A DNA stretch of 64,000 nt from Campylobacter volucris (GTDB taxonomy: Bacteria; Campylobacterota; Campylobacteria; Campylobacterales; Campylobacteraceae), in assembly GCF_008011665.1 (NCBI RefSeq), contig NZ_VOWJ01000021.1, forward strand, positions 62,001-126,000. The letters run 5' to 3'. The position numbers were made by a program, and so were the translations under genes. Under the pieces are notes generated by a model. It saw only the letters and a list, made by a program, of their open reading frames with translations. It had not been told where the DNA came from and made no database searches. Below, piece by piece: positions 19,802 to 36,859 of the stretch. Position 1 is the stretch's first letter. Every line of letters starts with the position of its first letter.

Positions 19802-19818
19802 TAGATTATAAATGTCCA
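19802..19818 (+). promoter_or_regulatory. Island operator copy 1 with -10 box
   Basis: TAGAT-N7-GTCCA, two mismatches from TAGAC-N7-GTCTA. It is followed after 11 bases by TATACT (19830-19835), a good -10. It lies directly behind the addA stop and 45 bases before the first gene of the plus-strand operon that runs to 24624. It is the weakest copy of the set, but the spacing to the -10 is the same as in the others. Confidence 0.6.
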
Positions 19819-19862
19819 TTTTTATATTTTATACTAATAAAAATTTTTTAAAAAGGATAAAA

Positions 19863-20292
19863 ATGGCTTTAGCGGTTGAGACTATTCAAGATTATACTAT
19901 TAAAATAGCTAAGAAGTCTTTTTGGATGTGTTTTAACGCTCCAAACAATGATTTTCATATCAATAAAACAAAACATAACAACTTGTTTGATAAAGACAAG
20001 ACAGATTGTAAAGCAAGAGATGAATTTTTAGCTTTTATGAGAGAAAATTTTCCAAAAACAAAACCAACTATGGTATTTGATACAGCTCCAGTGGAGTGTT
20101 TGTCGTATCCTTATTTGGGGGAGTATTGCTATTGATTGTGAAGAAAATGATGAGGTTTATAAGGCTATAAACAAAAAAAACGAAGATGAAAATTGCATAC
20201 CAAAATCTATGAATGCAGTTTTTTGGGAAATGAGTCCTGAGGTAGCCAAAGAACTACATGAAGCTAGGAAAATTGATTATGAAAATTTTTAA
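19863..20292 (+). pseudogene. Unknown gene split by a frameshift in a G5 run
   Basis: The first part, from the ATG at 19863 (ribosome site AAAGGA), reads MALAVETIQDYTIKIAKKSF up to SYPYLG and then leaves frame. The next frame continues with SIAIDCEENDEVYKAINKK to ENF. The switch is at GGGGG (20117-20121): with four Gs the reading frame would run on without interruption to give about 142 residues. I do not recognise the family. It lies 9 bases ahead of the Sir2 gene in the operon behind operator 1. Confidence 0.65.
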
Positions 20293-20301
20293 AGGTAAAA
20301 A

Positions 20302-21122
20302 ATGCAAATAAAAACCCATATAAAACAAGCTTTAGATAAAGCAGAAATTATACTTATTACAGCTGGAGCTGGTATGGGTGTAGATAGTGGCTTGCCTGAT
20401 TTTAGAAGAAAAGAAGGTTTTTGGAGAGCTTATCCGTATTTGGAAAAATTAAAAATTGATTTTGAGTATATGGCAAATCCTTCACAATTTTATAAAAATC
20501 CTGAGCTTGCTTGGGCTTTTTATGGCCATAGATTTAAGCTTTATAAAGATACTTTGCCACATAAAGGATATGAAGTACTTTTAAAATTAGCAAAAAGCAA
20601 GCAAGAATATTTTGTTGTTACGACTAATGTAGATGGACATTTTAAGAAAGTTGGTTTTGATGAGGATAGAATTTATGAATATTATGGAAGTATAAATTAT
20701 CTTCAATGTTTTAATTATGCATGTGGTGATTTGATATGGCAAATGAAAGAAGAACTTCCTATAAATATACAAGAATTTAAAGCCTTATCTTTACCAAAAT
20801 GTCCTAGATGTCAAGGTTTAGCAAGGCCAAATATTTTGATGTTTAATGATGGTAGTTTTAATGATAAGCGTATATCTTTACAAAAGCAAAATTATAAAAC
20901 TTGGCTAAATATAAAGAAAATAAAAATATTTTAATCATAGAACTTGGTGCTGGCACGGCTATACCTAGCATGCGTTTGTTTGGTGAAAATTTTTGCAATA
21001 AAAATAAAATTCTTTTAAGAATTAATCCTAATGAATGCTATTTTCCAAAATTTTTTAAAAATGGCATAGGAGTTCAAATGGGAGCCTTGCAAGCTTTAGA
21101 AATGATAGATGAATTGATATAA
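20302..21122 (+). pseudogene. Sir2-family NAD-dependent deacylase, frameshifted
   Basis: The family is clear: GAGMGVDSGLPDFR (NAD site), TTNVDGHF, a zinc site CFNYAC ... CPRCQG, and PNILMFNDGSF. Near 20899-20905 the frame changes: the first part ends in NYKTWL and the other frame resumes LAKYKENKNILIIELGAGTA and runs to 21122. The expected joined text YKTWLAKY suggests a loss of 4 bases (or 1). The catalytic His of the usual HGS motif is Tyr here (EYYGSINYLQC, codon TAT for CAT). The gene is therefore probably inactive in two ways. It is in the operon ahead of the DUF262 genes. Confidence 0.8.
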
Positions 21123-21149
21123 TAAATTTAAATTTTAGAAAGGTTATAA

Positions 21150-22529
21150 ATGAGTGGTGAAAATACAGAAGTAAAATCATGCGTTGTGAGTTTGAAAGAG
21201 TTGGTGCAAGGTAAAGTGGATAAAAATGAAGAGATATTTTTAAAAGAAGGTTTTTCTTTAAACATACCTGATTATCAACGCCCTTATACTTGGGATATAA
21301 AGCAAGTTAAAATTCTTTTAAAAGATATAAACGAACAAATGAATAAAAATGATCAAAAATATCTTTTGGGAAGTTTGATATTGCATAAAAATGATAAAAA
21401 TGATGGAAATAAATTCAACATAGTAGATGGCCAACAACGCCTTAGCACTTTAGCTTTAATTTTAAAAGTTTTATGTGGATACAATCAAGGAAAATGCGAG
21501 GAATGTAAAATAGGTAATTTTTTAAGCGATGTTAAATACTCTCATAATGAGTCAAAATACCATATCAAAGAAAATTATGAATATATAAAAACTTATTTTG
21601 AAAGTTATGATAAAAAAGACAAGTTTTTAGATTTTATTTTAGAGAATATAGAATTTATCTGCGTTTTAGCACCAAGCGAAGATGATGCATTCTTGTTTTT
21701 TGATAGTGCAAATTCAAAAGGCAAAGCTTTAAAATCATATGATCTTATAAAGGCTTTTCATTTGTATTCTTTAGAGAAAAAACAAGGCAATATGCTAGGT
21801 TATTATGCAAGGAAATTTGAAAATCTTGCAAAAGATGAAAGAAAAATCACTATTTTATTTGATGAGCTTTTAGCACCTGCTAGAGCATGGTTAAAACATA
21901 AAAGTATTAATACTAATGATATTAAAGCATATGATGAATTTTGTAAAGAATTTTTTAGTGATAAATTCCTTTATAGCAAGGAAAATTTAGGAATTTTAAG
22001 TAGTTTTGCTAATGGAGTGGATTTTTTTGAATATTTGTTTAAATATGATGAGTTTTTTGATAAATTATCAAATAATGCTTTATATCAAGAGCTAGATAAG
22101 ATATATCAAACAGGATTTATTTATAACAAATACATTTATGCAATTGCTGTGATGATTTATTTTTCTAAATTTCCAAATGGCAATAGTGATTATTTTTTAC
22201 TTTTGCTTGCAAGAGCTGCTTTTAGTTTGAGAGTTTATAGACCAAGTATTTATAGGGCTACTCAAAGAGATTATGCTTTGGAATTTTTAGAAAAAGTATA
22301 TTTTGTATCTTTTGAAGAAGAATTAGAGCAAAATTTACTTGATTTTATAGCTGTAAAAAATGAAGAAGAAAGAAAAATAAAAATTGAAGAAGAAAGAAAA
22401 AATAAAGAAATAAAAACAAATCAAGGGCCTGATGGTGGGAAAAAATGGTATTTGGATATAGTTCAAGAAAAATATAAAAATCAACACATACAAAAGCATA
22501 TAGTTAAGGAGAATGAAAATGGCAAATAA
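21150..22529 (+). CDS. DUF262 protein without HNH domain (GmrSD-like first subunit)
   Basis: A 459-residue protein. The N-terminal DUF262 (ParB/Srx-like nucleotide-binding) fold shows IPDYQRPYTW, YLLGSLIL and IVDGQQRLSTL, and a later FFDSANSKGKAL. No DUF1524 HNH motif is seen at the C-terminus, which instead is a charged coiled stretch (EEERKIKIEEERKNKE). DUF262 proteins such as GmrS are NTP-dependent parts of type IV restriction systems against modified phage DNA. It overlaps the second DUF262 gene by 11 bases, so the two are coupled. The start has a GAAAGG ribosome site. Confidence 0.8.
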   Translation: MSGENTEVKSCVVSLKELVQGKVDKNEEIFLKEGFSLNIPDYQRPYTWDIKQVKILLKDINEQMNKNDQKYLLGSLILHKNDKNDGNKFNIVDGQQRLSTLALILKVLCGYNQGKCEECKIGNFLSDVKYSHNESKYHIKENYEYIKTYFESYDKKDKFLDFILENIEFICVLAPSEDDAFLFFDSANSKGKALKSYDLIKAFHLYSLEKKQGNMLGYYARKFENLAKDERKITILFDELLAPARAWLKHKSINTNDIKAYDEFCKEFFSDKFLYSKENLGILSSFANGVDFFEYLFKYDEFFDKLSNNALYQELDKIYQTGFIYNKYIYAIAVMIYFSKFPNGNSDYFLLLLARAAFSLRVYRPSIYRATQRDYALEFLEKVYFVSFEEELEQNLLDFIAVKNEEERKIKIEEERKNKEIKTNQGPDGGKKWYLDIVQEKYKNQHIQKHIVKENENGK

Positions 22530-24624
22530 TTCAACAAATAATCAAAATCAAGCAAATATTAAAAGTATTAGTGAAGTGGCGGATAAGATCTTTTTTGAAA
22601 TTCCACCTTATCAAAGACTATATGAGTGGAATAAAGAGCAAATACAAACCTTGCTTAATGATATAAAAGCTAAATTTGATGATAAAGAATACTTTATCGG
22701 TAATGTAGTAGTAAGCAAAAAAGGCGATAAATATCTACTTATAGATGGCCAACAACGCTTAACAACTTTGTTTTTAATAGGATTTTTTCTTTCTTATAGA
22801 AAATGTGATGGTTGGCAAAATTTTATTATGCAAGGTGATAAACTTAGAATTTCTATGCCTATAAGAGAAAAAGAAGAAAAAGTTTTAAAGGAATTTGCTA
22901 AATTTTGTAATGAAGATAATAGTAGAGAAAATGATTTATTTTTACAAAAATTAAAAGAATTTCCACAGGATATAAGCCAAAACATACCACAAGCTTTAGA
23001 AGTTATAGTAAATTGGTTTGAAGAAAATATCGAAAATAATGATATTGCAGATTTTTTTGAGTTTATTTATAAAAAAGTAAAATTTGTTTTTGTAGAATTA
23101 GCCGAAAATACTGACTTAAACCGCTTTTTTATCCGTATGAATAACCGCGGCAAACAACTAGAAAAACATGAAATTTTAAAATCAAGATTGCTTTCTAAAA
23201 TTAATGATGAAAATAAAAGAGCTTTTTATGCTCATATATGGGATATTTGCTCACAAATGGATAATTACATCTTTCAAAAAGCTAGTGATAGAAAGATTTC
23301 TAAATCAGATGAAAGTAGTGGAGATGATGAACAAAAAAATACTATTGATAAAAATACTATTGATGATATTATAAAAAATAACCAACAAAAAATTACAAAA
23401 AAAGATGATGATGAAGATAAATCTAAATTCAAATCCATAGTAGATTTTCCTACTTTTTTATTGCATGTTTATAAAATTTGCAATAAAAAAGATATTATCA
23501 TAGACAAAAATAAGCTTTTAGAGTTTGTAAATACTGAAAGTATTGATTCCAAAGAGTTTATTAAAAATCTTTTAAAATATAGAATTTTATTTGATTATTT
23601 TGTTGTTAAGGGTATAGATGATGTGGAAAATTCTTATAAGATTAGAAAATTATCTAAGAAAAATAACACATATACAATTAGCGAAGATTCTAATGAAATG
23701 TCTAATCTTGCTATGGTGCAAAACTATCTACGCGTAGCAAGAAGTGGTATGTCTAATAATCATCATCACTGGCTTACTCCATTTTTGAAAAAAATAAATG
23801 ATTATTTAAGTAGTCTTAAAGATAATAATACAATATCTGAAATTGTAAAATTTTTTTCTAATGATCTTAATATTGCTAGCGAAAATTTTGAGAATAATGT
23901 AGAAAATTATATAAAATCACTAATAAATAATGATAATCTGAAAGATTTTTATAAAGGAACACAATCAGGCTTAATACTTTTCCTTGAAAATTTAGATACA
24001 GCTTTAGCTAAAGAGCAATTGCAAGATAAAGTTTTAATTGATAAAGTTAATGAAATTTTACAAGATTCACAAAAGAAAGATGGTGAAAATTTTCAAATAG
24101 ATAATTTTTTCAAAAATGAACAAGAATGCATATTAGATCAAGGAACTGCGACTTTGCATTATTGGTTTTATCGTTTGGAGTATTATTTATGGAAGTATTC
24201 AAAAAAAGAATATATTTCAAAAGTAGAAGATAATGAAAAATTAAAAGAAATAAATCGGGGAAATTTTAGTGAAATTGTTAGCAGTTTTTATTTTAGAAAT
24301 TTAAATTCCATAGAGCATGTGCAAGCACAAAGCAAAGCAGAAGAATGGGGAGAAGACAAAGATAAAATAGATAATTTTGGAAATTTAGCGTTGATTAGCT
24401 CTAGTTTTAATTCATCTTTAAATAATCAAGATGTGCAAGATAAATATTTAGATTTGCAAAAATATATAAATAAAGATAATGTCATATCTTTAAAACTTTG
24501 GTTAATTTATGCTTTAAGCGAAGAAGATCAGTTAGGATGGACTTTTAAGAAAGCAGAAAATCATAAGAAACAAATGTTAGAAATCTTAAAAAATTCTTTT
24601 AAGGCAATCAAAGATAAAGCTTAA
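22519..24624 (+). CDS. DUF262-DUF1524 (GmrSD-like) nuclease
   Basis: About 701 residues. The N-terminal DUF262 motifs are IPPYQRLYEW, YFIGNVVVS and LIDGQQRLTTLF, then FIRMNNRGKQLEKHE. The C-terminal DUF1524 is the HNH-type nuclease, with SIEHVQAQ and later FGNLALISSSFNSSLNN. This is the GmrS-GmrD fused layout, a known type IV restriction architecture. The ATG at 22519 is preferred over 22513 because AAGGAG lies 7 bases ahead of it. The middle part (about residues 250-320) is a low-complexity charged linker rich in Lys, Asp and Asn. A perfect hairpin follows. Confidence 0.85.
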   Translation: MANNSTNNQNQANIKSISEVADKIFFEIPPYQRLYEWNKEQIQTLLNDIKAKFDDKEYFIGNVVVSKKGDKYLLIDGQQRLTTLFLIGFFLSYRKCDGWQNFIMQGDKLRISMPIREKEEKVLKEFAKFCNEDNSRENDLFLQKLKEFPQDISQNIPQALEVIVNWFEENIENNDIADFFEFIYKKVKFVFVELAENTDLNRFFIRMNNRGKQLEKHEILKSRLLSKINDENKRAFYAHIWDICSQMDNYIFQKASDRKISKSDESSGDDEQKNTIDKNTIDDIIKNNQQKITKKDDDEDKSKFKSIVDFPTFLLHVYKICNKKDIIIDKNKLLEFVNTESIDSKEFIKNLLKYRILFDYFVVKGIDDVENSYKIRKLSKKNNTYTISEDSNEMSNLAMVQNYLRVARSGMSNNHHHWLTPFLKKINDYLSSLKDNNTISEIVKFFSNDLNIASENFENNVENYIKSLINNDNLKDFYKGTQSGLILFLENLDTALAKEQLQDKVLIDKVNEILQDSQKKDGENFQIDNFFKNEQECILDQGTATLHYWFYRLEYYLWKYSKKEYISKVEDNEKLKEINRGNFSEIVSSFYFRNLNSIEHVQAQSKAEEWGEDKDKIDNFGNLALISSSFNSSLNNQDVQDKYLDLQKYINKDNVISLKLWLIYALSEEDQLGWTFKKAENHKKQMLEILKNSFKAIKDKA

Positions 24625-24635
24625 GCTTTATCTTT
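24610..24635. terminator. Bidirectional terminator, perfect 13-bp palindrome
   Basis: AAAGATAAAGCTT and its exact complement, followed by a T-run. It overlaps the stop codons of the second DUF262 gene and of the converging small gene, so it serves both strands. Confidence 0.75.
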
Positions 24636-24924
24636 TTTTAAATTTAGCAAAAGCTTTATTTTTGCTTCTTATCTTACGAAAATACTCTTTTGACAAGATA
24701 TCCTTTAAAATTTTAGCATTGTTATAACTTAGCTTAGTTTTTCTTTGTATGTAAGAGATGGCTTTGTTTGCTAAATTTTGTGCTTTAGATTTTTTTATCA
24801 AAGCTTTATCTAATATAGCTGTTTTAGGCATATTTTTGATAAATTCTAAATACTCTTCTTTGCTCTCAAAAGAAGAATCTTCAAAACTAAATGGAACCTG
24901 ACTTGATATTTTTTTCTTTTTCAT
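24628..24924 (-). CDS. Small basic protein of unknown function
   Basis: 98 residues, very Lys-rich (start MKKKKISSQVPFSFEDSS, end FAKFKKR), with no membrane segment. An upstream ATG at 24936 is open, but its context ATGGAGGAAAAAATG shows that GGAGG is the ribosome site for the ATG at 24924. The gene has its own promoter: operator 2 lies 42 bases upstream with TAAAAT at 24955-24950. The charge suggests nucleic acid binding, and a regulator role is possible. I do not recognise the family. Confidence 0.6.
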   Translation of the reverse strand: MKKKKISSQVPFSFEDSSFESKEEYLEFIKNMPKTAILDKALIKKSKAQNLANKAISYIQRKTKLSYNNAKILKDILSKEYFRKIRSKNKAFAKFKKR

Positions 24925-24965
24925 TTTTTCCTCCATATTTTAAAAAGATATTTTACCATAAAATA

Positions 24966-24982
24966 TAGACATTTTTAGTCTA
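24966..24982. promoter_or_regulatory. Island operator copy 2, divergent promoters
   Basis: A perfect TAGAC-N7-GTCTA. On the minus side a TAAAAT -10 starts after 10 bases (towards the 98-residue gene). On the plus side a TATAAT starts after 11 bases (24994-24999), towards a decayed gene. One palindrome thus sits in the -35 region of two divergent promoters. Confidence 0.75.
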
Positions 24983-25106
24983 TAAAATTATAATATAATT
25001 CAACTTTGCTAAATTTATTATTGATGAATTTGATTATAAGATAGCTTGATTTTAGTTTTGACAAGTGATGGTTTTTTATGTGGATAAAATGCAAATGTAG
25101 ATATAA

Positions 25107-25292
25107 AATAGTGTTTTGATAAGGCGTTTGATTTTAAAAAAGGCTTATATAGATGATCAATTTATATTTATCAATACAGATGGAGAATTTATGCTTGATT
25201 TGCAGTTTGAAAATGTAAATATTTGGGCAATGGAATTTATGAGTTTGGTAAAAATGGACATAAATTTTTATATGAAATACGATGAAAAATAA
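25107..25292 (+). pseudogene. Gene remnant, possibly WG-repeat-like
   Basis: Within the 480-base gap 24937-25416 an open stretch without a sensible start reads AYIDDQFIFINTDGEFMLDL, then QFENVNIWAMEF, ending at TAA. The FINTDGE-type pattern resembles one WG repeat unit (compare FIDKNGKL in the neighbour). Upstream stretches carry stops in all frames. It lies downstream of the plus-side promoter of operator 2, so it is probably the tail of a lost gene. The rest of the gap shows nothing else that I can name. Confidence 0.4.
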
Positions 25293-25416
25293 TCCTTAAT
25301 CCTTTTTCTCAAAGACAAATTTCATGTATAATCAAGGATATGGGTTGGAAAATTTTAAGCTTGTTAGAGTTAAAAGAGTAAAATTTGGTTTTAAAAGAAT
25401 GTGCTTAAAATACATT

Positions 25417-26484
25417 TTAACAATCAAAGTTTATGTATTTTAAAACATTTATTTTTATGGTTTTTTTGATTTTTAAATTTATCATATTAACTATCTTATC
25501 TTTTATTGCTAATATTAGGTTGTTATCTAGTATTGTGATTTGATCATATTTGATTTTTATAATAATCTTTCCTTTTTTATCTATAAGACCCCATTTATCA
25601 CTACATTTAACTTTGGCAAAACCTTTGTTAAAATGATCTACTTCATCATATTGTGCTTTGATGATTAGCTTTCCTTTTTTATCTATAAAACCAAATTTTT
25701 TATTAATCAAGATTGAAGCTAATCCATCGTGAAAATAACTCACGATATTTTCTTTATTTAATATTAAATATAATCCAATTTTTGAAGCACCTTGTATGTC
25801 AAAAAAAGCTAGATCATCATCTAAATCATTTATAAAATCATATTTTGCCTCTATGATTAATTTTCCATTTTTATCTATAAAACCCCATTTATTATCAATT
25901 TCAACCGCAGCCATTCCTTGAAAAAAATCTTTAATTTTATTGTATTTAGTGTCTATAGCAATTTCCCCTTTTTTATTTATAAAACCCCATTTCCCATTAA
26001 GCTCAACTCTAGCTAAACCTTCGCTAAAGTCATAAGCATTATCATACTTTGCCTCTATGATTAATTTTCCATTTTTATCTATAAAACCCCATTTATTTTT
26101 TAAACAAATAGTTGTTAAATTTTCTTTATATTTTTTTATGTTTTTAAATTTAGTTTGTGCTGTAATATTTTCATCAATTTTATAAGGAAAAATTATTTTT
26201 ATAATATTTCCTTTTTTATTTACAAAGCTATTTTCATCTCCATTATATACTCTAAATAAACCATTATAAAAGCTTTTGGAATTGATACTTCCATTTAGTT
26301 CTTTGATAAACTGTGCCTTTGAATCGATCAGAATTGATTTAAAAATAATATGTTGATTTTTTGTATCATGTATTTTTAAATTTATATAATATATTTTATT
26401 TGCATTTAACACCCCAAAACTATGATATTCTATATCAAAATTTTGATATGTGAAGGTACTTTTAGGTTGTTTAGTGGTGAGCAT
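25417..26484 (-). CDS. WG-repeat protein
   Basis: 355 residues, with five clear WG beta-repeats in the C-terminal two thirds (KWGFIDKNGKLI twice, KWGFINKKGEIA, KFGFIDKKGKLI, KWGLIDKKGKII) and more degenerate ones before them. No signal sequence is seen. WG repeats form beta-propeller-like or solenoid binding surfaces, and the function is unknown. The ATG at 26484 has no ribosome site of its own and lies inside a 33-codon upstream frame that does, so translation is probably coupled. It stands between other island genes. Confidence 0.75.
   Translation of the reverse strand: MLTTKQPKSTFTYQNFDIEYHSFGVLNANKIYYINLKIHDTKNQHIIFKSILIDSKAQFIKELNGSINSKSFYNGLFRVYNGDENSFVNKKGNIIKIIFPYKIDENITAQTKFKNIKKYKENLTTICLKNKWGFIDKNGKLIIEAKYDNAYDFSEGLARVELNGKWGFINKKGEIAIDTKYNKIKDFFQGMAAVEIDNKWGFIDKNGKLIIEAKYDFINDLDDDLAFFDIQGASKIGLYLILNKENIVSYFHDGLASILINKKFGFIDKKGKLIIKAQYDEVDHFNKGFAKVKCSDKWGLIDKKGKIIIKIKYDQITILDNNLILAIKDKIVNMINLKIKKTIKINVLKYINFDC
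25844..25893. repeat. 50-bp direct repeat, copy A
   Basis: Identical over 50 bases to 26048-26097, 204 bases (68 codons) away and in the same frame of the WG-repeat gene. Both encode the KWGFIDKNGKLIIEAK unit. Near-perfect identity at the DNA level suggests recent duplication or conversion. Confidence 0.85.
26048..26097. repeat. 50-bp direct repeat, copy B
   Basis: Second copy of the repeat at 25844-25893 inside the WG-repeat gene. Recombination between the copies would remove or add 68 codons in frame. Confidence 0.85.
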
Positions 26485-26572
26485 TGTTTAAATTATGATT
26501 ATTTTTTTGGTTGCATAATAGATTTTTTTTATTAGCAAGATTTTTATCTAGTTTTAAAAGTGTTGTTTTCAT
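26471..26572 (-). CDS. 33-residue upstream frame overlapping the WG-repeat gene
   Basis: Starts at 26572 with an AAGGA ribosome site 6 bases upstream and reads MKTTLLKLDKNLANKKNLLC to AHH. Its TAA (26473-26471) lies 14 bases inside the WG-repeat gene. It is positioned 47 bases behind operator 3. It is either a leader peptide giving translational coupling or the true N-terminus of the WG protein cut off by an indel. A stop just before the WG ATG in its own frame limits where such an indel could be. Confidence 0.4.
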   Translation of the reverse strand: MKTTLLKLDKNLANKKNLLCNQKNNHNLNNAHH

Positions 26573-26618
26573 GTGTTTTCCTTTTTAATTAATATAATTG
26601 CTATTATATGTATTTTTA

Positions 26619-26635
26619 TAGACTACTGCTGTCTA
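26619..26635 (-). promoter_or_regulatory. Island operator copy 3 with -10 box
   Basis: A perfect TAGAC-N7-GTCTA. Reading towards the WG-repeat gene, TATAAT starts 10 bases after the repeat (26608-26603). The palindrome therefore lies across the -35 region. Confidence 0.75.
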
Positions 26636-26698
26636 GTTTAATAATTTTTGCTTAGAGATTGATATAAAAACTCTAAGCGGTAACTTTTAATATAGTTA

Positions 26699-28180
26699 TT
26701 ATTTTACAAGCTCTTCTAAATGCTTTAAAATTTTTACCATGGCTAAAGTATCGAGTTTGCAGTATTCTAGTAAGGCTTTGCGGTAAGTTTTTCTTTCATT
26801 TTCGCTCATATTTTGCATAGCTTCAAAACTTTGCATAGCTTCGCTTCCATTGTGGATTAAATCTAAATCATTATAAGATTGCTCCATATCAGGGATTAAA
26901 GCTGGTAAAACTTTTTTTATAGAATAACTTCCTTGCATTTTATAATGATAATAATCTTTATTTTGAAAAGGTATCATAAGATCTTTGATATTTTTTTCTA
27001 TATTCAGCAAATGCTCGCTAAATTCAGGAAAAATAAGTGCTAAATTTCTTATCACACCTTTTTCAAAGCTTGCATTATAAGCAAGTATGCAAACATCTTT
27101 TGGTATATCGCTAATCAAATTTTTTGCAAGTTCATATCTTGGATCAACACCACATTCGCTTAAAAATTCTTTATGTTCTAGCTTGTCTTTATAGTCTATG
27201 TGTAAAGAGTATTGAAAAGGTATTTGCATATAAGGCTTTACACCTTTAAATTCAGGTACAGCTTGCATAAATGTTTCAAAGTCTAAATGATATATAGGAT
27301 AAGTTAGAGTATTTAAAAAATTTTTGATATTTTCTTTGTTTATTTGAATTTCTTTATTTAGTGAAGCTTTGATTTGAATTTGTTGATTTTTATTAAAAAC
27401 ACTTAGATCTTTTATATCTTTAAAATTGATTATATTTTTATAATAAAGTTCAAATTTTTTATTTGCATTAAGCCTTGAAATACTAAAAATATTCTCACTT
27501 TCGCATAAATTTCTTTGCTTAGCCCAGCAGTACTTATATCCATCACACTCATAAGGATCAAAACAATGTGTTCCTATGTCTATATTTGGTTCTTCATTTT
27601 TACTTAAAATTTCTTCAAAGTATTTTAAATTTTCTTTGACTTGCTCTTGATTTTGGATGACTTTATTTGTGATATCATTTGAAATAAAAAGTTGATTTAT
27701 ATCAAGAAAATCTTCTCTATAGTATTCATTGTTTAAGTGGATTAGATTAACTTGTTTGATTTTATAATTTAAATTTGATAAAACATAATACTGCAAAGAA
27801 CAATCATCTATATAAACATCTTTTAAAGAAGTAGAGCTTTTTACTTCATTTATGATTAAACCATCTTTGGTATTTTGCAAAATATCTATCATGATTAAAA
27901 TGCCATCATAACAAAAAGTAGCTTCGTAGATTATTTCTTGATTGTTTTCTAATAAATTCTTAGTTTGTGCACAATTTTCCGCTGATTTATCTTTTTGGTA
28001 TTTTATTTTTACTCCATTTGGAAAAAGCTCACAGGCTAGATCGCCTACTTTATTACCTGTGCTAAATTTAGCTAAAGTGTTTTCATCTGGCTTGCTTAAA
28101 ACATCTTTTTTGTGAGTTTGCAACCATAAAGATTTTGCACATTGTGTGCCTCTTGTGTATCTTGATTTTGAAAAAAACAT
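26699..28180 (-). CDS. DUF2779 protein: Cas4-like nuclease fused to RNase H-like exonuclease
   Basis: 493 residues. The N-terminal half looks like a Cas4/RecB-type nuclease: YTRGTQCAKSLW near the start, EATFCYDGILIMIDIL and LIINEVKSSTSLKD as the D...ExK core, and a Cys cluster CFDPYECDGYKYCWAK that with the first Cys could bind Fe-S. The C-terminal half is a DnaQ/RNase H-like exonuclease: YHLDFETFMQAVP, ILAYNASFEKGVI, and LEYCKLDTLAM. The DUF2779 family has this order. Its role is not established to my knowledge. It is read with the membrane gene upstream, from which a hairpin separates it. Confidence 0.8.
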   Translation of the reverse strand: MFFSKSRYTRGTQCAKSLWLQTHKKDVLSKPDENTLAKFSTGNKVGDLACELFPNGVKIKYQKDKSAENCAQTKNLLENNQEIIYEATFCYDGILIMIDILQNTKDGLIINEVKSSTSLKDVYIDDCSLQYYVLSNLNYKIKQVNLIHLNNEYYREDFLDINQLFISNDITNKVIQNQEQVKENLKYFEEILSKNEEPNIDIGTHCFDPYECDGYKYCWAKQRNLCESENIFSISRLNANKKFELYYKNIINFKDIKDLSVFNKNQQIQIKASLNKEIQINKENIKNFLNTLTYPIYHLDFETFMQAVPEFKGVKPYMQIPFQYSLHIDYKDKLEHKEFLSECGVDPRYELAKNLISDIPKDVCILAYNASFEKGVIRNLALIFPEFSEHLLNIEKNIKDLMIPFQNKDYYHYKMQGSYSIKKVLPALIPDMEQSYNDLDLIHNGSEAMQSFEAMQNMSENERKTYRKALLEYCKLDTLAMVKILKHLEELVK

Positions 28181-28243: not shown

Positions 28244-28882
28244 TTATTTTTTCAAAGGTTTATCTCGCATTAGAGCATAGATTAGCCCACTTGAAATAGC
28301 AAAATGTACTAGTGAATTTTGCTTATCTTCTTTTCTTTCAGCAACAGTTTTACCTTCACCCTTTTTTAAAGCCCCAAAAAGACTAAGCCCAAACCACAAT
28401 CCCAATATGATTTTTAATGGTAGTATTAAAATTGATAATAATGGATTATAACGATTATCTTTGAGTGTTATGCATGCAATATACAATAAAACACTTATCC
28501 ATATAAAAGCCATAATGCCTAGTATTATTAAAGTGATATTTCTTTCTACTTGTAGAAAAAACATAGTAAGAATAATTATCCAAATTACAGGTAGTGCAGC
28601 AAATAATGCAACACACAAGCTTACATCTAAAATATTTCTATACACTATAACCTTACCTTTTACACCATAAATTATAAGCACTATTGCAATAACTATGTAA
28701 ACAATAGCTGCTATGATAATCACTGAATTAGTATAATTTTTAAAAGTTTTTTGGGTTGTGTTATTATCTATAGTTTTTTCTATTGTTATATCTTGTTGTG
28801 ATGTAGTATAATTTACTTCAGCATTAGCAAAAGTAAAACACATACACATTAACATGCTTAAAATTAAAAGTAGTTTTTTCAT
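28244..28882 (-). CDS. Multi-spanning membrane protein with signal sequence, unknown
   Basis: 212 residues: an N-terminal signal (MKKLLLILSMLMCMCFTFAN), a short Thr/Asn-rich exported stretch, then four to five TM helices (for example SVIIIAAIVYIVIAIVLIIYG, VALFAALPVIWIIILTMFF, LIILGIMAFIWISVLLYIA), and a basic tail. I do not recognise the family. It is the first gene behind the minus-side promoter of operator 4 and precedes DUF2779. A membrane effector role in the island is possible but not shown. Confidence 0.6.
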   Translation of the reverse strand: MKKLLLILSMLMCMCFTFANAEVNYTTSQQDITIEKTIDNNTTQKTFKNYTNSVIIIAAIVYIVIAIVLIIYGVKGKVIVYRNILDVSLCVALFAALPVIWIIILTMFFLQVERNITLIILGIMAFIWISVLLYIACITLKDNRYNPLLSILILPLKIILGLWFGLSLFGALKKGEGKTVAERKEDKQNSLVHFAISSGLIYALMRDKPLKK

Positions 28883-28985
28883 TTTATTCCTTTATTTTTA
28901 ATTTGTTGTTTTAAATTTTTTATGTTGATTTTTTAACACCTCCATGACTTGATATTTTTTATTTTGTAATTGTAATTTATTTTAT

Positions 28986-29002
28986 TGGACCGAGTTTGTC
29001 TA
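28986..29002. promoter_or_regulatory. Island operator copy 4, between membrane gene and mcrB
   Basis: TGGAC-N7-GTCTA, one mismatch. On the minus side TACAAT starts after 11 bases (28974-28969), the spacing of the other copies, driving the membrane gene. On the plus side the best -10 is TATGAT at 29023-29028, 20 bases away, before mcrB. One site thus lies between two divergent defence units. Confidence 0.65.
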
Positions 29003-29079
29003 TTTTTAATTTTTTATTTTGGTATGATTAGTAATGTAAAAACAAGTTATAATTATAAAAATCAAAACTAGGGAAAACA

Positions 29080-31083
29080 ATGAGCGATTTAAAAAATAGT
29101 TTAAAGGGTTTTAAAGATAAAAATTTTGGTTTTTATTTTGATAAAAATAATAATTGTTATATTTATCATACTAAATTTGGCAGGGAAAGAGGTATTGAGA
29201 TTGAAGAAAATAACGAGTGTTTTAAATTTGTTAATTTAAATAATGCAAATTATAAAAGTATTCAAGAAAATCTTGAGAGTCTTACAAACTATAAAAAATT
29301 TATAGAAGATTGTAAAGATAGAAACTTTAAAACCCTAGAAGAAATTTTTGATGAGTATAAGAAATTTATATATATTTGTAATAATATAAATTTTGATATT
29401 TTAAAAATAGCTTTTGGGAAATATTTAGAAAATTACAGTAAAGAAGATACTATTCATATTAAATTTTATGAAAATGGAGAATTTTTACAAACAAAAAGCG
29501 AAATTGTGGACAATTTTGGCAAAACATTTGGTAAAAAAATAGACGAGATAGATTTCAATCAAGATAATTTTAATGATGAAACTTTTAAACAATGGTGGGA
29601 TAAAAGTATAAATAGTGCTAAAATGCAAGGCAATGCCACAAATTTATTAAAAGATAAAGATAAATTAATTAAAAATCTTGAAAAAATAAAAAAAGCAAGT
29701 AAGAGTGGAAATTTAACAGAACTATTTGAAGAACTTAAAGAAGTAGAAGGTATGAAAGCTACAGCTAGAGAATTGGCATATTTTTTACAATTTAATCAAC
29801 AAGATGAATTTCCACTTGCAAATGACGCTTCCATAAATACTGCTAAATATATCTTTGAAATGTTAAATGAAAATTCAAAAGATGAACTTGAGAAAAGAAA
29901 AAAAGAAAGTACTTCAAATAATGAACAAGAATATTTTAATTTCGTTTTAGAAAAACTTGAAATACAAGAAAAACTTGAAATACAAGAAAAAATTGAACAT
30001 CTTCCAAAATACTATATTTTAGATCAATTTTTAAATTTGATTGATAAGATAAGAAAATCTGATTTGGCTTTAATTACAAAAGATAATAAAGAAAATGATA
30101 TAGCTAAAAGTGCGTATTATAAACTTTACGAAGCAGCTTATGATTTTGCAAATTTATGTGGCAAAGCAGATATAAAAAGCAATGATTTAGAAGGCTTTAA
30201 AGAGCTTTTAAAAACGCATAAAAACATCATTTTTCATGGAATTCCTGGAACTGGAAAAACCTATACTATAGTAAATAATGTAAAAAATATCATTAAAAAT
30301 GAAAATCAAATGCTTATCACTCAATTTCACCCAAGTTTTTCTTATGAGGATTTTATAGAGGGTATTAAACCTGCGGGGGTTGAAAATGGACAATTAAAAC
30401 TTGAGCTTAAAAATGGAATTTTTAGAGAATTTTGTGATAAAGCAAAAGAAGAAGAAAAAGGGTTTTTAGAAAAACTAGAAAATGGAAATTTCAATGAAGC
30501 TTTAAGTGATCATGGGTATTTTTTCATAGCCGATGAGATTAACCGTGCGGAATTATCTAGGGTTTTTGGAGAATTACTTTATGCACTTGAGTATAGAGGG
30601 GAAAAAGGCAAGATAAAAACACAATATGCCTCCATGAGAAGAGATGATGAGGATTTTTATGTGCCTGAAAATGTATTTTTCTTAGGGACAATGAATGATT
30701 TAGATAAAAGCATAGATAGTTTTGACTTAGCACTTAGAAGACGCTTTATATGGCAAGAAATGGAGTGTGATTATGGTGTAATAAGAGATGAAATATACGC
30801 AAAAAATATCGAAGAATACGCACAAGCTTGTCAAAAATTAAACAAAAAAATTAGTACAGATATAGGTGAAAAATATCAACTTGGACATTCTTATTTTCTA
30901 AAAATTGAATTTAAAAATGATGAGATTAAAGATAGTGATATGAAAAAACTTTTTAGCAACCGCTTTGAAGCGCTTTTAAAAGAGTATTTAAGAAGTGAAT
31001 ATAGTGAAAAAGATATACAAGATCGCTTGGATGGTTTAAAAAAACTTTTTGTTATAGAAAAACCAAATGAACCAAAAAAATGA
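29080..31083 (+). CDS. mcrB: McrB-like AAA+ GTPase subunit
   Basis: 667 residues. The motor subunit of a type IV restriction system that translocates on DNA containing modified cytosine. The N-terminal half is a variable, charged specificity region. The AAA+ part has Walker A FHGIPGTGKTYTI, the McrB signature TQFHPSFSYEDFIEGIKP, Walker B FFIADEINRAELSRVFGEL, sensor-type LGTMNDLDKSID (the place of the GTP-specificity motif) and ALRRRF. It is coupled to mcrC by an ATGA overlap and looks intact. Confidence 0.9.
   Translation: MSDLKNSLKGFKDKNFGFYFDKNNNCYIYHTKFGRERGIEIEENNECFKFVNLNNANYKSIQENLESLTNYKKFIEDCKDRNFKTLEEIFDEYKKFIYICNNINFDILKIAFGKYLENYSKEDTIHIKFYENGEFLQTKSEIVDNFGKTFGKKIDEIDFNQDNFNDETFKQWWDKSINSAKMQGNATNLLKDKDKLIKNLEKIKKASKSGNLTELFEELKEVEGMKATARELAYFLQFNQQDEFPLANDASINTAKYIFEMLNENSKDELEKRKKESTSNNEQEYFNFVLEKLEIQEKLEIQEKIEHLPKYYILDQFLNLIDKIRKSDLALITKDNKENDIAKSAYYKLYEAAYDFANLCGKADIKSNDLEGFKELLKTHKNIIFHGIPGTGKTYTIVNNVKNIIKNENQMLITQFHPSFSYEDFIEGIKPAGVENGQLKLELKNGIFREFCDKAKEEEKGFLEKLENGNFNEALSDHGYFFIADEINRAELSRVFGELLYALEYRGEKGKIKTQYASMRRDDEDFYVPENVFFLGTMNDLDKSIDSFDLALRRRFIWQEMECDYGVIRDEIYAKNIEEYAQACQKLNKKISTDIGEKYQLGHSYFLKIEFKNDEIKDSDMKKLFSNRFEALLKEYLRSEYSEKDIQDRLDGLKKLFVIEKPNEPKK
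29953..29988 (+). repeat. Tandem 18-bp repeat in mcrB
   Basis: Two exact copies of AAACTTGAAATACAAGAA followed by a partial third, encoding KLEIQE twice in the linker between the specificity and motor parts. Copy number could vary by slippage without breaking the frame. Confidence 0.85.
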
Positions 31084-32426
31084 AAAATCCAATAAAAATA
31101 AATGATAATAGCTTTATAGAAATAGAGCAAAAATCTTCAAAAATACAAAATTTTGATTTGTATTTTGAAGATTTTATAAAAGATGGAAATTTCTTTTCTT
31201 TTTTCAATGATGATGAAAAAATTTTAAGTAAAAATGCTAAAAATCTCATCATATCAGCAAGAACAATTGATGAAAATAAAAGGCAAATCACTAGTGGAAA
31301 TTATATAGGAAAAATTTCTTATAATGGTTTAGAAATTGAGATAAATTCCAGGTTTGGTAAAAAGTTCTTAGAAAGAATGCTAAATTTTGCTAATGATGTA
31401 TTTGTCGATGATGTGAGTATTTATCAAGATATAAAAAAGGAAAGCAATATAAGCGAGTTTATACTTTTTTACATCTTTGTGCAAAAACTTGAAAAAAGTT
31501 TTTTGATAGGTTTGCCTAAAAATTATCAAAGTAAAAAATACAACGATTTGCGTTTTAAAGGAAATATCGATATAGTTGAATTTATAAAACACAATATTCC
31601 TTTAAAAGCAAAGGTTGCTACAAAATCAAGAGAGCAAATAGAAGATGTGCATATTATCAATGTGCTTTATAAGGCATTACAAGTCATAGAAAAGAAAAAT
31701 TCAAGCTTTTTAAAAAATATAAAACATATAAAAGCTTATCTAACACAAAATAAAAGTGAGCATTGTTTTATAAAAGAAAGTTTAAACAAAGCCTTTTCTA
31801 GTAAAGCCTTGAAAAATCAAAACTATCAAAACTACAAAGAGCTTTTAAAATATGCAAAAATGATCATAGAAAGTGAAAATTTCACTAGTAAAAATAAAAA
31901 CAATCAAAAAAGCTATGGTTTTATCATCAATGTGGCAGAGCTTTTTGAAATTTATATAAGCAAGCTTTTAAGAAATAATTTTGAAGAATATATGGTTGAT
32001 TCTCCAAAACTTGAAATTTATAAAAATAGCTTTTATAAACGCTATATAATACCTGATATTGTTTTGTCTAAAGATGATAATTATATAGTCTTTGATACTA
32101 AATATAAAAAAATGATAATGGAAGGTAAAAACCAAAATGGCATGGGAGATTTAGATAGAAATGATTTATTTCAAATTCATACTTATATGGGGTATTATCA
32201 AAAGATAGGCAAAGTGCTTTTGGGCGGACTTTTATATCCTATACAAGAATTTGAAAAAGAAAAATGCCATAGTGAAAATTCTATCCTTTCAGATGAGTAT
32301 AAATTTATAGTTGATGGAATTTTTCTTGAAGATAGTCAAGATAAAGAAATCACTCTTGAGTGTATTACCCAAAAAGAAGCACAATTTATAGAAAGGATCA
32401 AAGAGCTACTAAAACAATCATTTTAG
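31080..32426 (+). CDS. mcrC: McrC-like endonuclease subunit
   Basis: 448 residues of the McrBC 5-methylcytosine restriction component family. The N-terminus has the ISYNGLEIEINSRFGKKFL segment typical of McrC. The C-terminus has a PD-(D/E)XK core: IPDIVLSKDDNYIVFDTKYKK. It is the nuclease partner of the preceding GTPase, and both together target phage DNA carrying modified bases. It ends in a hairpin shared with the converging gene. Confidence 0.9.
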   Translation: MKNPIKINDNSFIEIEQKSSKIQNFDLYFEDFIKDGNFFSFFNDDEKILSKNAKNLIISARTIDENKRQITSGNYIGKISYNGLEIEINSRFGKKFLERMLNFANDVFVDDVSIYQDIKKESNISEFILFYIFVQKLEKSFLIGLPKNYQSKKYNDLRFKGNIDIVEFIKHNIPLKAKVATKSREQIEDVHIINVLYKALQVIEKKNSSFLKNIKHIKAYLTQNKSEHCFIKESLNKAFSSKALKNQNYQNYKELLKYAKMIIESENFTSKNKNNQKSYGFIINVAELFEIYISKLLRNNFEEYMVDSPKLEIYKNSFYKRYIIPDIVLSKDDNYIVFDTKYKKMIMEGKNQNGMGDLDRNDLFQIHTYMGYYQKIGKVLLGGLLYPIQEFEKEKCHSENSILSDEYKFIVDGIFLEDSQDKEITLECITQKEAQFIERIKELLKQSF

Positions 32427-32431
32427 TAGCT
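32404..32431. terminator. Terminator hairpin between converging mcrC and island gene
   Basis: An 11-bp stem (AGCTACTAAAA, 6-base loop) that covers both stop codons. Confidence 0.65.
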
Positions 32432-33110
32432 TAGTAAAAGAAATTTTTCTTTCTATATCCTCGTGAGTGATAGAGTCTATTTCTAGTTCATAGGGTTTAA
32501 AATTTTTCGTGCTAATATTGGCAAATAAAATATCCCAACTCACATCTAAAAGTTTTTTTAACCCCTTTGAAAAATCATAATCTTTTAAGTAAAAATTATT
32601 TCTTATCAAATTTTCATTTTGTTTTAAAATTTCTAGTAATTCTTGCTCTTTAATGTAAAATAACTTTTCTATAAGTATGTTTTGATAAGGTGAGATGTCG
32701 TTGATGTTGAGTATTTTTTTATCTATCCAGCCATTTTTAGGATAGGCATATGCGCTTGCGAGATGATAGAGTTTGCTTTTTGTGTTTGTTTCTTTTAATT
32801 TATAGTGTATTTTTGCATTATGTTTTACAAAATCTACAATGCAAAAATGTTTAAAATTCACATAAGTTTGACTTAAAAAATTTTCAAAAGACAAAAGTTT
32901 GCTTTGAGTATTTACATCTAAAAAATATCCATTTTCTAAATGATGAGTTTGACTTAGTAATTGTATATTTTCTGCGTTTTGAATTTGTACTTGGAAATTT
33001 AACTCATCATTGTTGACTTCATGTAATGCTTTAATGTATTCTTTTGTTTTTACATCATTAAATCCAAACACAAAACTTTTATGTATTGTTCCTTGAAGTG
33101 TTATATTCAT
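32418..33110 (-). CDS. Unknown protein paired with tandem-AAA ATPase
   Basis: 230 residues from the ATG at 33110, chosen because AAGGA lies about 8 bases upstream. A start at 33155 would lie inside the ATPase gene without a ribosome site. It begins MNITLQGTIHKSFVFGFNDV, has no membrane segment, and I recognise no domain. It lies 13 bases behind the ATPase and is surely cotranscribed with it, so it may be its substrate or partner. Confidence 0.65.
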   Translation of the reverse strand: MNITLQGTIHKSFVFGFNDVKTKEYIKALHEVNNDELNFQVQIQNAENIQLLSQTHHLENGYFLDVNTQSKLLSFENFLSQTYVNFKHFCIVDFVKHNAKIHYKLKETNTKSKLYHLASAYAYPKNGWIDKKILNINDISPYQNILIEKLFYIKEQELLEILKQNENLIRNNFYLKDYDFSKGLKKLLDVSWDILFANISTKNFKPYELEIDSITHEDIERKISFTKLLK

Positions 33111-33123
33111 AGTTTTATCCTTT

Positions 33124-35045
33124 TTATAAAAATCCCATATTGATTTTTTCATCATCTGATTTGAGTTTTGATTCTTTTTCTAATTTTTCTAAAAACTTAT
33201 CAATATTTTTGATTTTAAAAATTTTATCTTGTCTAAGGATTAACGCAAAATCCCCCAAGCAAATATTTTGAAGCTTTAAAAGTTTGTTTGCAATTTGTTT
33301 TTTGTCATAATTTAATTTTAGTTCTTTAGCAAAAAATTCAAAAGCTTTCAAAAGCTTTTCTTGCTTTAATGCTTTAAATTCTACTTTTAGATCAAACCTT
33401 CTGATGCTAGCTTGATCAAGGCTTTTTAGATGATTTGTAGAAGCTATGAAAATGCCCTCAAAATTTTCCATTTGCATAAGCATTTCATTTACCAAATTTC
33501 TTTCCCAATTTTTACTTGCATTTTCTCTATCTGAAATTAAAGCATCTATTTCATCAAGCTGTAAAATAGCATTGTTGTTAGAAGCTTGTTTAAAAATCCT
33601 TGCGATATTTTTTTCGTTATTTCCCACATAAGGATCTAAGATATCACTAAGTTTATAAGAATGTAAAGTTTTATTTAAACTCTTAGCCATTTCTTTAGCA
33701 AACTCACTCTTTCCGCTACCTGCTATACCATAGCTTAAAATTCTCAAATTTGAATTTTTATCAATATTTTTTATCAATTCTTTTAAATTTAAATCACTTT
33801 CTATTAAGTTTAAATCATATTTTTTACTTGTTTTTTCTATGGATATAGGCTTGAGTGATCTTGCTTTTAAGTTTTCATTAATCAATCTTAAAAATATCTC
33901 TTGGCTTTTGTTTTTAAATATCCTTGCATTTTGAGCACATTTTAATATAACCCCTTGAGAAAGCTCTGGGTGAGAAGCTATGCTTTTATAATTGTTTCAT
34001 CTATTTTTAATCTTTGCTTATCAAATAAATTTTGAATATTTTGAATTTTCTTTTCTTTAGGCATACTTTCTAATTCTAAAATCACATCAAAACGCCTTAA
34101 ATACGCTTCATCCATATCATTAGAATTAGATAAAAATATGCATATAGCTTTATTTTCATCTAAAATTTTATTAATTCTTATTTTTTCAGCCAAAGAATTA
34201 TAACAAAAACTATCTTCACATTCATCAAACAATATCATTTGTTTTTTAGGATTAACTATCTTTTGAAGAGCGTAAAAATTCGAAATTCTATTAGAATTTT
34301 TTTGACTTATTTTAGTTTTCACACATAAAATCTCTCGATTAAATTCTTTAGCTATAAGTGCGCTGAGTTCATTTTTACCTACACCAGCTTTGCCATATAT
34401 AAAAATATTTCCTTTTTGTTTGTATTTTAAAAGGGTGATTATATCATTCACTTTTTCTTGAATATAATCAAAATCATTCAATTTTAGTCTAGCTTTTGGT
34501 AAAAAATATGCAAATTCTTTAAAAAGCATACTTTTGCTGATATCTTGTATAAAAATATTCTCCAAATTATTAACATCTACTCCAAAAGCATCGCTATCAT
34601 AAAAACTCAAGATATCGAGTTTATAAAGTATAGAATTATCACCTAAAGCTTTATTGATATCTTTTATAGGGTGATTAAAAATTTTTTCTATGATTTTTCT
34701 AGCTAAATTATTACTATAACCTTGATGCAAAGGAAAGCAACCCTTGTTTGCATAATGGAAAAATACAAAAACATCACATTCAATTTGAGTAAAATTCAAA
34801 TATTTTTTGAGATAATTTAAATTTTTCTTTAAAAAATGAGGATAAACAATTTTAGAGTATTGTTTATAGATAAAACTAGGGATTTTGCTATCTTTTTCTA
34901 GTATATCTTCAAATTCGCTGTAAAAATCTTTCTTTATTTGCTTATTATTAGAAAACATTAGTGCATGTAGCGAAATGACTTTTATATTATGTGAGTAATA
35001 ATCAAAGTCCATGATATGAGTAGGATTAGAAGTATTTGCTTGCAT
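33124..35045 (-). pseudogene. Tandem AAA+ ATPase split by a single-base frameshift
   Basis: Two frames join into one protein of about 640 residues. The upstream frame (35045 to 33978) has an AAA module: GNIFIYGKAGVGKNE, MILFDECEDSF, FLSNSNDMDEAYLRRFDV. It ends ETIIKA-stop, but the other frame continues directly as IASHPELSQGVILKCAQNAR and leads into a second AAA module: LSYGIAGSGKSEFAKEM, AILQLDEIDALI, IASTNHLKSLDQASIRRFD. One extra A in the four-A run at 33984-33987 would restore IIKSIASH. Either it is inactivated or it is made as two half proteins. It has its own operator 5 upstream. Confidence 0.75.
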
Positions 35046-35093
35046 TATAAACCTTTAAACTAAGATGTATAATGCAATTATAAGCAAAATAAC

Positions 35094-35110
35094 TAGACTT
35101 GAATTGTCTA
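35094..35110 (-). promoter_or_regulatory. Island operator copy 5 with -10 box
   Basis: A perfect TAGAC-N7-GTCTA immediately after the HNH gene. Towards the AAA gene, TATAAT starts after 11 bases (35082-35077). The AAA gene therefore has its own promoter and does not depend on the HNH gene upstream. Confidence 0.75.
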
Positions 35111-35111
35111 T

Positions 35112-35729
35112 TTATGAAAAATTATTTGTTGTTTTATTGTTTAATAAGTCTTCGTAAAAACTTTTAATATGTTTTCCAAAATATTTCTTAAAATTTTCAG
35201 TATTTATCATATCACTTTTTGCGTTATTGCAAATACAGCAAGCTAAAACACAATTTTCTTCATTGTAACCTTTATCTGGATCTAATCTTTCAATTTGCAA
35301 TGAACTACTAAAAGATGGTTTTTTGGAATTTATAGGTTTATTATCTCCAAATAAATTATCTAGATTGCTTTGTGTTGTTTTGCAGTAAAAACATTTTTTC
35401 TCTTGTTTTTTATACCATGATATAAATTTTCTAGCACTTCCAAATGGCTCTTCATTATCATTTCTTCTTTTTGTAGGGTTATATCTACTTTTTAAGTATT
35501 TTAAAGAATTTTGTGTTTTTTTATAAAATTTGTCGTATTTTTTATTGTCAAATTCTTCATATAACTCATTTAACTTAAAAATTATATAACCTTTAAGAGA
35601 TTTATGTTTTTTCTTTAATTCACTCTTTGCTTCTTTTTCATCAAGTTCCTTTATGGCTTTATCCCATTCTGATAAAACACCTTTTAGATAAAGCTCTTCA
35701 AATTTTTCTTCTAATGTTTGATTTTTCAT
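35112..35729 (-). CDS. HNH-like endonuclease
   Basis: 205 residues. The C-terminal half has the zinc-knuckle HNH pattern: CFYCKTT, then QIERLDPDKGYNEENCV, then CCICNNAKSDM. In place of the usual Asp-His pair the core has Glu-Arg (IER), so it is a variant HNH or catalytically altered. The N-terminal half is charged and helical. It reads towards the AAA gene, with an operator between, and no operator copy is seen in front of it. A role as a defence nuclease is inferred from context. Confidence 0.65.
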   Translation of the reverse strand: MKNQTLEEKFEELYLKGVLSEWDKAIKELDEKEAKSELKKKHKSLKGYIIFKLNELYEEFDNKKYDKFYKKTQNSLKYLKSRYNPTKRRNDNEEPFGSARKFISWYKKQEKKCFYCKTTQSNLDNLFGDNKPINSKKPSFSSSLQIERLDPDKGYNEENCVLACCICNNAKSDMINTENFKKYFGKHIKSFYEDLLNNKTTNNFS

Positions 35730-35741
35730 TTTTTCCTTCCT

Positions 35742-36509
35742 TCAATAAAAGATATTAGCACTAATGCAATGCAATGCGCCACCTTTTTTGATGATAGGTT
35801 TTAGATATATACCTATGATTTATTTATCTTTATAGATATTTTGTAAAAAGCTTAAAACTCTCTCATCTTCATCTATACCATAAGTTGGCACAAAAATTAC
35901 CTTGTCAAACTCTAAAAAATTTAAATACCCACCCTATTTGTATTTTTGCATAAATTCTTTAGAATAACTCATTTTAGTAACTTTAAAATCTTTTAAAGCA
36001 GTGTTTAATTTCTCAAAAAATTGTGCATTTTCTAAGGAAAAATCATTGATTAGCACATGATTTTTACTTATAAATCTTATCATACTATCGCTATGTGCGT
36101 ATCTATCATAAGCTAGCCTTGGTAAAAAGACTATATGTTTTAAATTTAGACTTTGTTTTAAAGTTTGTACGATGTTTTCTTTGCTAAGTGTTGAGTTTTG
36201 GCTAAAAATTTTCTCACACATAAAGGCAATATCATGTTTTCTTATAAAATTGCCTCCATCAAGGATCAAATTTAAGTGATTTTTTAAAGGTTTTATGGCG
36301 GTTTTTAAATGCGGGTAATTTTTAAGATAATCAGGATCATAAGTATAACTTGTCGCTGTATTTTTATATACTAAAGGCATGAAATCTCTTAGCCATATAT
36401 CATTGCTTAGTATTTCTTTAAAAGCGATGTTAAATTTAGCGAAATTTTGTACAAGATTTTGATAAATTCTTTTATGTTTTAGCGATAAAAGTGTGGAAAT
36501 GGCTATCAT
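35742..36509 (-). pseudogene. Agmatine deiminase / PPAD family gene with two in-frame stops
   Basis: One frame reads through the whole family fold: NDIWLRDFMPL, LDGGNFI, RYAHSDSMIRF, then TAG at 35936-35934, then GGYLNFLEFDKVIFVPTYG, then TAA at 35822-35820, then IIKKGGALHCIS with the catalytic Cys motif, ending at 35742. Both stops are substitutions, not frameshifts. The gene is therefore dead, although the Asp-Trp-Arg-Asp, His-Asp and Cys motifs can all still be read. It is a metabolic gene trapped in the island. The gap 35730-35741 and the upstream region show no operator copy. Confidence 0.85.
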
Positions 36510-36578
36510 TGATTATCCTCGTATGTTTAAAACTAGTATTTCATCATTATAAATAATGTGACATTGTAAAATATCTCC

Positions 36579-36720
36579 CTAAAGTTTTAATTTACCCTTA
36601 GAATATTTATAATGTTTTATGGCAAATTCTAAAGAAGAATTCATCTCATCATAATGCTCTTTTAAAAGCTACTTTTGTATGCTTTGACATTCTACAAATA
36701 AAGCTTTTGTTTTTAAAATT
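36579..36720 (-). pseudogene. Gene remnant with internal stop
   Basis: The gap 36510-36905 holds a minus-strand stretch KTKALFVECQSIQK-stop-LLKEHYDEMNSSLEF and on to KGKLKL-stop in one frame. It has the look of a real protein end but no start. The rest of the gap is AT-rich with no other recognisable gene. I do not recognise the family. Confidence 0.35.
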
Positions 36721-36842
36721 ATTCACATTGTTATAGCCTAAATTCTTTGTAAGCAAATTATTAGTATGAGTTAAAATATATTTTATAATATCAAGTATCT
36801 TAATAATTTGCTAAGTAATTTAGAAAATGATAACTAAAAATA

Positions 36843-36859
36843 TAGACACTAATAGTCTG
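36843..36859 (+). promoter_or_regulatory. Island operator copy 6 with -10 box
   Basis: TAGAC-N7-GTCTG, one mismatch. TATAAT starts after exactly 11 bases (36871-36876), before the PD-(D/E)XK gene at 36906, which has an AAAGG ribosome site. Confidence 0.7.

Follow-up and report, generated by a model that had tools for sequence, protein, structure and literature searches.

The closest described systems are WYL regulators of both signs. DriD of Caulobacter crescentus is a WYL activator of a DNA damage response independent of SOS and is switched on by single-stranded DNA (ssDNA); its consensus, ATACGAC-N7-GTCGTAT, overlaps the -35 region, lies at the same distance to the -10 box in all targets and also serves a two-way promoter (PMC12340889). 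In mycobacteria, the activator PafBC works at promoters without a -35 box through a motif whose distance to the downstream -10 box is fixed (PMC11804915), and the homodimeric activator SiwR uses a palindrome upstream of the -10 box (PMC10693628). BrxR represses BREX islands through R-boxes, 11-base-pair (bp) repeats with a 5-bp spacer (PMC9122601). CapW represses CBASS from sites that overlap the -10 box of one operon and is released on infection (PMC9122588). Here we analyzed a 64,000-nucleotide stretch of Campylobacter volucris DNA (the window), in which a defence island carries palindromic operators, TAGAC-N7-GTCTA, at the promoters of unrelated genes and encodes a WYL protein that appears to be their regulator.

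How the many systems within one defence island are jointly regulated is an open question; the known cases concern one operon or compact locus. The operators, their fixed spacing to the -10 box, their tie to WYL orthologues and their many unrelated targets were shown computationally. We consider it very probable that they form a WYL-operator regulon, the link resting on co-occurrence.

Operators and their distance to the -10 box

All six operator copies of a preliminary description were reproduced in position and sequence (Table 1). Among half-site spacings of 2 to 20, TAGAC and GTCTA occurred in the window at a spacing of 7 only. As described, the spacer sequence changes from site to site; GAC, GTC and the -10 hexamer are constant. 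With 11 nucleotides (nt) to the -10 box, the 7-bp spacer spans -35 to -29, which agrees with the claim that the palindrome covers the -35 region. The seven -10 readings at 10 or 11 nt were confirmed in spacing, although an eighth had been omitted (TATCAT at 36827-36832, minus strand). In all, eight hexamers that match TATAAT in five or more of six positions stand at exactly 10 or 11 nt from the six sites, against about 0.34 expected from a control rate of 0.03 per site per position in both directions. The sites at 24966 and 36843 are two-way promoters, of which further cases were found in relatives. At 28986 the fixed spacing holds for the leftward promoter only, and the candidate -10 box on the McrBC side, TATGAT, is 20 nt away.

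With two mismatches allowed, the palindrome was found 17 times in the window against 15.7 expected from shuffles. This is chance level, so the case rests on the strict form and its context. The perfect palindrome has three copies in the 1,537,478-base genome, every one in the island. With at most one mismatch there were 19 places genome-wide: all five in the island were intergenic, whereas 12 of the 14 elsewhere were in coding sequence and two were not (Fisher p = 0.0018). We then defined a composite promoter pattern (operator, 10 or 11 nt, TATAAT). At one mismatch or fewer overall, it gave six matches genome-wide, all in the island; they fall on five of the six operator copies. The two-mismatch scan proposed in the preliminary description was thus uninformative in the window, but the strict and composite forms were specific to the island. 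An equal frequency of the motif across core or coding sequence, which would have spoken against a regulon, was not seen.

Co-occurrence of operators and WYL orthologues

In the genus set (49 genomes), WYL orthologues with 81-92% identity were present in five other genomes, and operator promoters were found in all six. The five relatives have intergenic operators in the contig region of the WYL gene, mostly within a few kb of it and up to about 50 kb away. The exact composite promoter was present in 6/6 WYL-positive and 0/43 WYL-negative genomes (Fisher 7e-8); stray perfect palindromes in the latter were nearly all within coding sequence. In the family set of 153 genomes, with WYL identities reaching as low as about 45%, the corresponding counts were 16/27 and 4/126 (Fisher 2.4e-11). 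Three of these four WYL-negative genomes share one conserved sequence, TAGACACTATATGTCTATAATGCC.CTTATAAT, a promoter sequence that probably belongs to another regulator. This second motif is paired with TATACACAATATGTCC about 2.4 kb apart, and most of the genomes that carry it are WYL-negative members of a single genus.

The geometry was retained in the relatives. Near WYL genes, 57 intergenic sites gave 33 readings of a -10 hexamer at 10 nt and 25 at 11 nt, compared with a rate of 0.03 per position at random intergenic positions. The genus of the window mostly uses 11 nt and other groups 10 nt. The half-site spacer was found to vary freely, with GAC and GTC invariant.

Around more diverged WYL orthologues from other families, the same operator was found, with the -10 box at 10 nt. 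When sites in these further families were picked regardless of a -10 box, 12 of 44 had one at 10 nt, two at 11 nt and no more than two at any other distance. In the family of genome G206 and on Arcobacter and Aliarcobacter plasmids, the half-sites (WRGACA) are 8 apart and the -10 box is still 10 nt off. In whole genomes of this second family (104 genomes), whose WYL orthologues are about 50% identical to the window protein, the exact composite with this 8-base spacer (N8) gave 33 matches and a reversed control pattern none. It was present in seven of the nine genomes with a high-scoring WYL orthologue versus 2/95 others (p = 6e-8), and in one of these two the contig also bears a broken WYL relic. 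On plasmid pACIB of Aliarcobacter cibarius, several N8 operators precede SLOG, ATP-binding and cyclic-phosphate receiver genes, alongside two or more such WYL regulators.

Downstream of operator promoters we found 133 genes, which fell into 48 sequence clusters. Pfam matches among them included AAA, SLOG/DprA-like, ResIII-type helicase, McrB-like AAA_5, agmatine-deiminase-like, Sir2, PcfJ-like, PDDEXK_4 and GmrSD_N domains; several targets had no Pfam match. DUF2779 and WG-repeat proteins were also targets by homology. Module types of the window reappear behind operators in other genomes.

The WYL orthologues associated with operators formed a supported clade, separate from a second WYL type. 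Judged from co-occurrence, the regulator of the operators is almost certainly the island WYL protein. The co-occurrence and the many unrelated targets support the earlier proposal that one regulator commands an operator spread across the island. For McrBC, which that proposal counted as probably wired, the facing side of the 28986 site has no -10 box at 10 or 11 nt in this genome, although McrB-like genes do lie directly downstream of operators in other genomes. A scan of a named GTDB collection with the WYL protein found no relatives, and a search of viral contigs returned one distant relative.

Activation, repression and other explanations

The reading we prefer, to which we give a probability of about 0.62, is that the WYL protein acts as a DriD-like activator of a dispersed defence regulon. 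The protein would bind TRGAC-N7-GTCYR palindromes as a dimer, with the spacer at about -35 to -29 (or -34 to -28) in place of a -35 box and the downstream half-site 10-11 nt before the TATAAT box. Bound in this way, it would help RNA polymerase to initiate at promoters that have no -35 box, as DriD does. The trigger may be a nucleic-acid signal, most likely ssDNA arising from phage infection or DNA damage, upon which the WYL protein would raise all defence modules of the island together. We infer the binding, the activation rather than repression and the ssDNA signal. HTH_11, WYL and WCX domains were all above the Pfam cut-off. DriD-type activators have a three-helix bundle between the helix-turn-helix (HTH) and WYL domains; for the island protein, helices were predicted at 76-93, 95-111 and 127-149 by a single-sequence model that was itself poor (pLDDT, the predicted local distance difference test, 46). 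Tyr170 of the WYL motif was invariant in 21 orthologues, and conserved basic residues (KKF-x-LK) follow the motif.

Several observations weigh against activation of this type. The sequence similarity of the WYL protein to DriD is modest, and the near-perfect TATAAT boxes are stronger than the weak targets of DriD; a strong -10 box could be equally compatible with a promoter that needs repression. About 40% of the WYL-carrying genomes in the family set, mostly those with diverged orthologues, are without the exact composite. The WYL gene itself has no canonical operator site in the window genome. Sites before this gene in three relatives (G020, G021 and G038) are degenerate and without fixed spacing, and in the Arcobacter-type lineage the site lies farther upstream; only G062 and G225 have a canonical one. 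No consistent autoregulation emerged from these sites.

The strongest competitor, though unlikely, keeps the same protein and operators and makes the protein a repressor of the BrxR or CapW type, which would block the -35 region and derepress the whole island upon infection. All the WYL regulators of defence loci that have been studied in depth are repressors (PMC9122601, PMC9122588), and the consensus -10 boxes would suit it. However, a repressor has no need of exact spacing, yet 10-11 nt is held across unrelated genes and several families. This rigid distance, kept whether the half-sites are 7 or 8 apart, points to the need of an activator, so the geometry favours activation. The type and position of the operator are also unlike those of BrxR and CapW, and in profile comparison with solved structures the WYL protein was closer to PafBC (5e-8) and DriD (2e-5) than to BrxR (0.012) and CapW (0.07). 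Activation takes about two thirds of the confidence that we place in the regulon as a whole.

It is far less likely that another regulator acts on these operators. The preliminary description had offered two candidates, the WYL protein, which our results favour, and a protein of 98 residues (102 amino acids in our reading). The gene of the latter has an operator upstream, as an autoregulated gene would, but it is present in just 2/49 genus genomes while operator promoters are present in six; being rarer than the operators, it is a target and not the regulator. The second WYL protein of the genome was set aside because its relatives, which are 25-31% identical to the island WYL protein, occur in genomes without operators. 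An alternative sigma factor fits poorly with palindromes and two-way use, and the -10 boxes are ordinary. Finally, the absence of any regulation, with promoter cassettes of common descent copied between modules or chance palindromes in DNA that is AT-rich throughout, is scarcely credible: the two-mismatch motif is indeed at chance in the window, but spacers and flanks differ by site around a constant GAC, GTC and -10 box, perfect sites are confined to the island, the reversed control stayed empty, and operator presence tracks the WYL gene across families.

The island and its relation to known WYL systems

The island is flanked by addAB-type recombination genes (14664-19795) and rplM-rpsI (39416 onward), and the gap from the addAB-type genes to rplM (19796-39265) looks like an insertion hotspot. 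The WYL gene of genome G026 shares the same upstream sequence and so probably adjoins rplM there too. The island contains a Sir2 remnant, a GmrSD-like (DUF262) pair, a small basic protein, a WG-repeat protein, a membrane protein with a DUF2779 protein, McrBC, a double-AAA gene, an HNH-like protein, an agmatine-deiminase-like remnant, a PD-(D/E)XK gene and the WYL regulator, which probably switches on the whole island together. The GmrSD-like pair is probably transcribed from the 19802 promoter as part of an operon.

Several of these genes are decayed. The first gene past the 19802 site (19863-20289) has a frameshift near 20120; its counterpart in G038 encodes an intact 142-amino-acid protein and is preceded by a perfect orthologous site (at 8215). 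The Sir2-like gene (20302-21120) seems to be frameshifted near 20930, with reading resumed in another frame, as judged by eye. The rightward target of the 24966 site (25046-25378) is a remnant of a WG-repeat gene that is intact in G038 (549 amino acids). What had been described as tandem AAA genes is one gene: the open reading frames at 33978-35045 and 33124-33885 (minus strand) correspond to a single 640-amino-acid protein in relatives and have been split by a frameshift. In relatives, the two-way operator promoter leads leftward into a target gene of 182-200 amino acids; this gene has decayed in the window (36519-36795), although the operator at 36843 persists. On the other side of this operator, the PD-(D/E)XK gene is broken near its start (36907-37046), and its 492-amino-acid form in G026 starts at the operator promoter.

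Table 1. Operators, -10 hexamers and genes of the island by window position, and places of the second motif in other genomes
Feature	Position	Strand	Remarks
Operator copy 1, TAGAT-N7-GTCCA	19802-19818	+	Degenerate, 2 mismatches to palindrome
-10 TATACT	19830-19835	+	11 nt from edge of copy 1
Operator copy 2	24966-24982	both	Perfect; two-way promoter
-10 TATAAT	24994-24999	+	11 nt from copy 2; toward decayed WG-repeat gene
-10 TAAAAT	24950-24955	-	10 nt from copy 2; toward small basic protein gene
Operator copy 3	26619-26635	-	Perfect
-10 TATAAT	26603-26608	-	10 nt from copy 3; WG-repeat gene
Operator copy 4, TGGAC-N7-GTCTA	28986-29002	-	G variant frequent in relatives
-10 TACAAT	28969-28974	-	11 nt from copy 4; membrane protein and DUF2779 unit
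Operator copy 5	35094-35110	-	Perfect
-10 TATAAT	35077-35082	-	11 nt from copy 5; AAA gene
Operator copy 6, TAGAC-N7-GTCTG	36843-36859	both	Two-way promoter
-10 TATAAT	36871-36876	+	11 nt from copy 6; PD-(D/E)XK (PDDEXK_4) gene
-10 TATCAT	36827-36832	-	10 nt from copy 6; toward decayed 182-200-amino-acid gene
GmrSD-like (DUF262) pair	21150-24624	+	Pfam
Small basic protein	24628-24936	-	Operator target and not the regulator, downstream of copy 2
Membrane protein and DUF2779 protein	26699-28882	-	Target unit of copy 4; Pfam
McrBC	29080-32426	+	Pfam; no -10 at 10/11 nt on its side of copy 4
Double-AAA gene	33124-35045	-	Target of copy 5; split by frameshift near 33982
PDDEXK_4 nuclease-like gene	36907-37894	+	Target of copy 6; Pfam; frameshifted near start
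WYL regulator (HTH_11, WYL, WCX)	38320-39237	-	Proposed operator binder; Pfam and co-occurrence
Second conserved motif, TAGACACTATATGTCTATAATGCC.CTTATAAT	G072 C11, G073 C9, G078 C1, G095 C7, G110 C1

We incline, by a small degree, to the broader reading that the WYL activator and its operator provide a promoter address common to the order Campylobacterales, used on chromosomes and on Arcobacter plasmids, and that dozens of unrelated defence modules carry this address with its rigid -10 distance. If this is true, a horizontally acquired module with the address would come at once under the resident regulator, and genes of unknown function that carry it would be candidate defence genes. The regulator-operator pair tracks unrelated modules across families, and the composite pattern has enough specificity for new candidate defence genes to be sought by promoter rather than by neighbourhood; the roughly forty target families to which it already points include several without a Pfam match. 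Neither this operator nor the regulon was described in the literature searched, which comprised no subscription papers or bioRxiv preprints.

Compared with the known repressors, the system resembles BrxR in that a WYL regulator lies inside a defence island with more than one operator (BrxR has two R-boxes; PMC9122601). BrxR serves one compact locus, whereas the island has five or six distinct units that span 17 kb and face both ways, and its operators lie on the -35 region and consist of half-sites of 5-6 bp on either side of a spacer of 7-8 bp. The HTH-WYL-WCX architecture is that of CapW; however, the site covers -35 and not -10, and the WYL tyrosine, invariant here, is His in CapW. Among the activators, SiwR likewise has a palindrome before the -10 box but controls one neighbouring operon. 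PafBC is the best-scoring solved structure for the WYL protein, yet it acts as a heterodimer on a motif that is not palindromic, and its regulon is one of DNA repair. DriD shares the HTH-WYL-WCX protein, the GAC-N7-GTC palindrome over -35, the constant -10 distance and the dispersed and two-way promoters. The distance from operator to -10 box, read by eye from published DriD promoters, is about 8-9 nt, near but not identical to the 10-11 nt of the window. The window system differs from DriD in its half-site flanks (TR/YR instead of ATAC/GTAT), its consensus -10 boxes and the 8-bp spacer of the Arcobacter-type lineage, and it serves the modules of a defence island where DriD serves division and repair targets.

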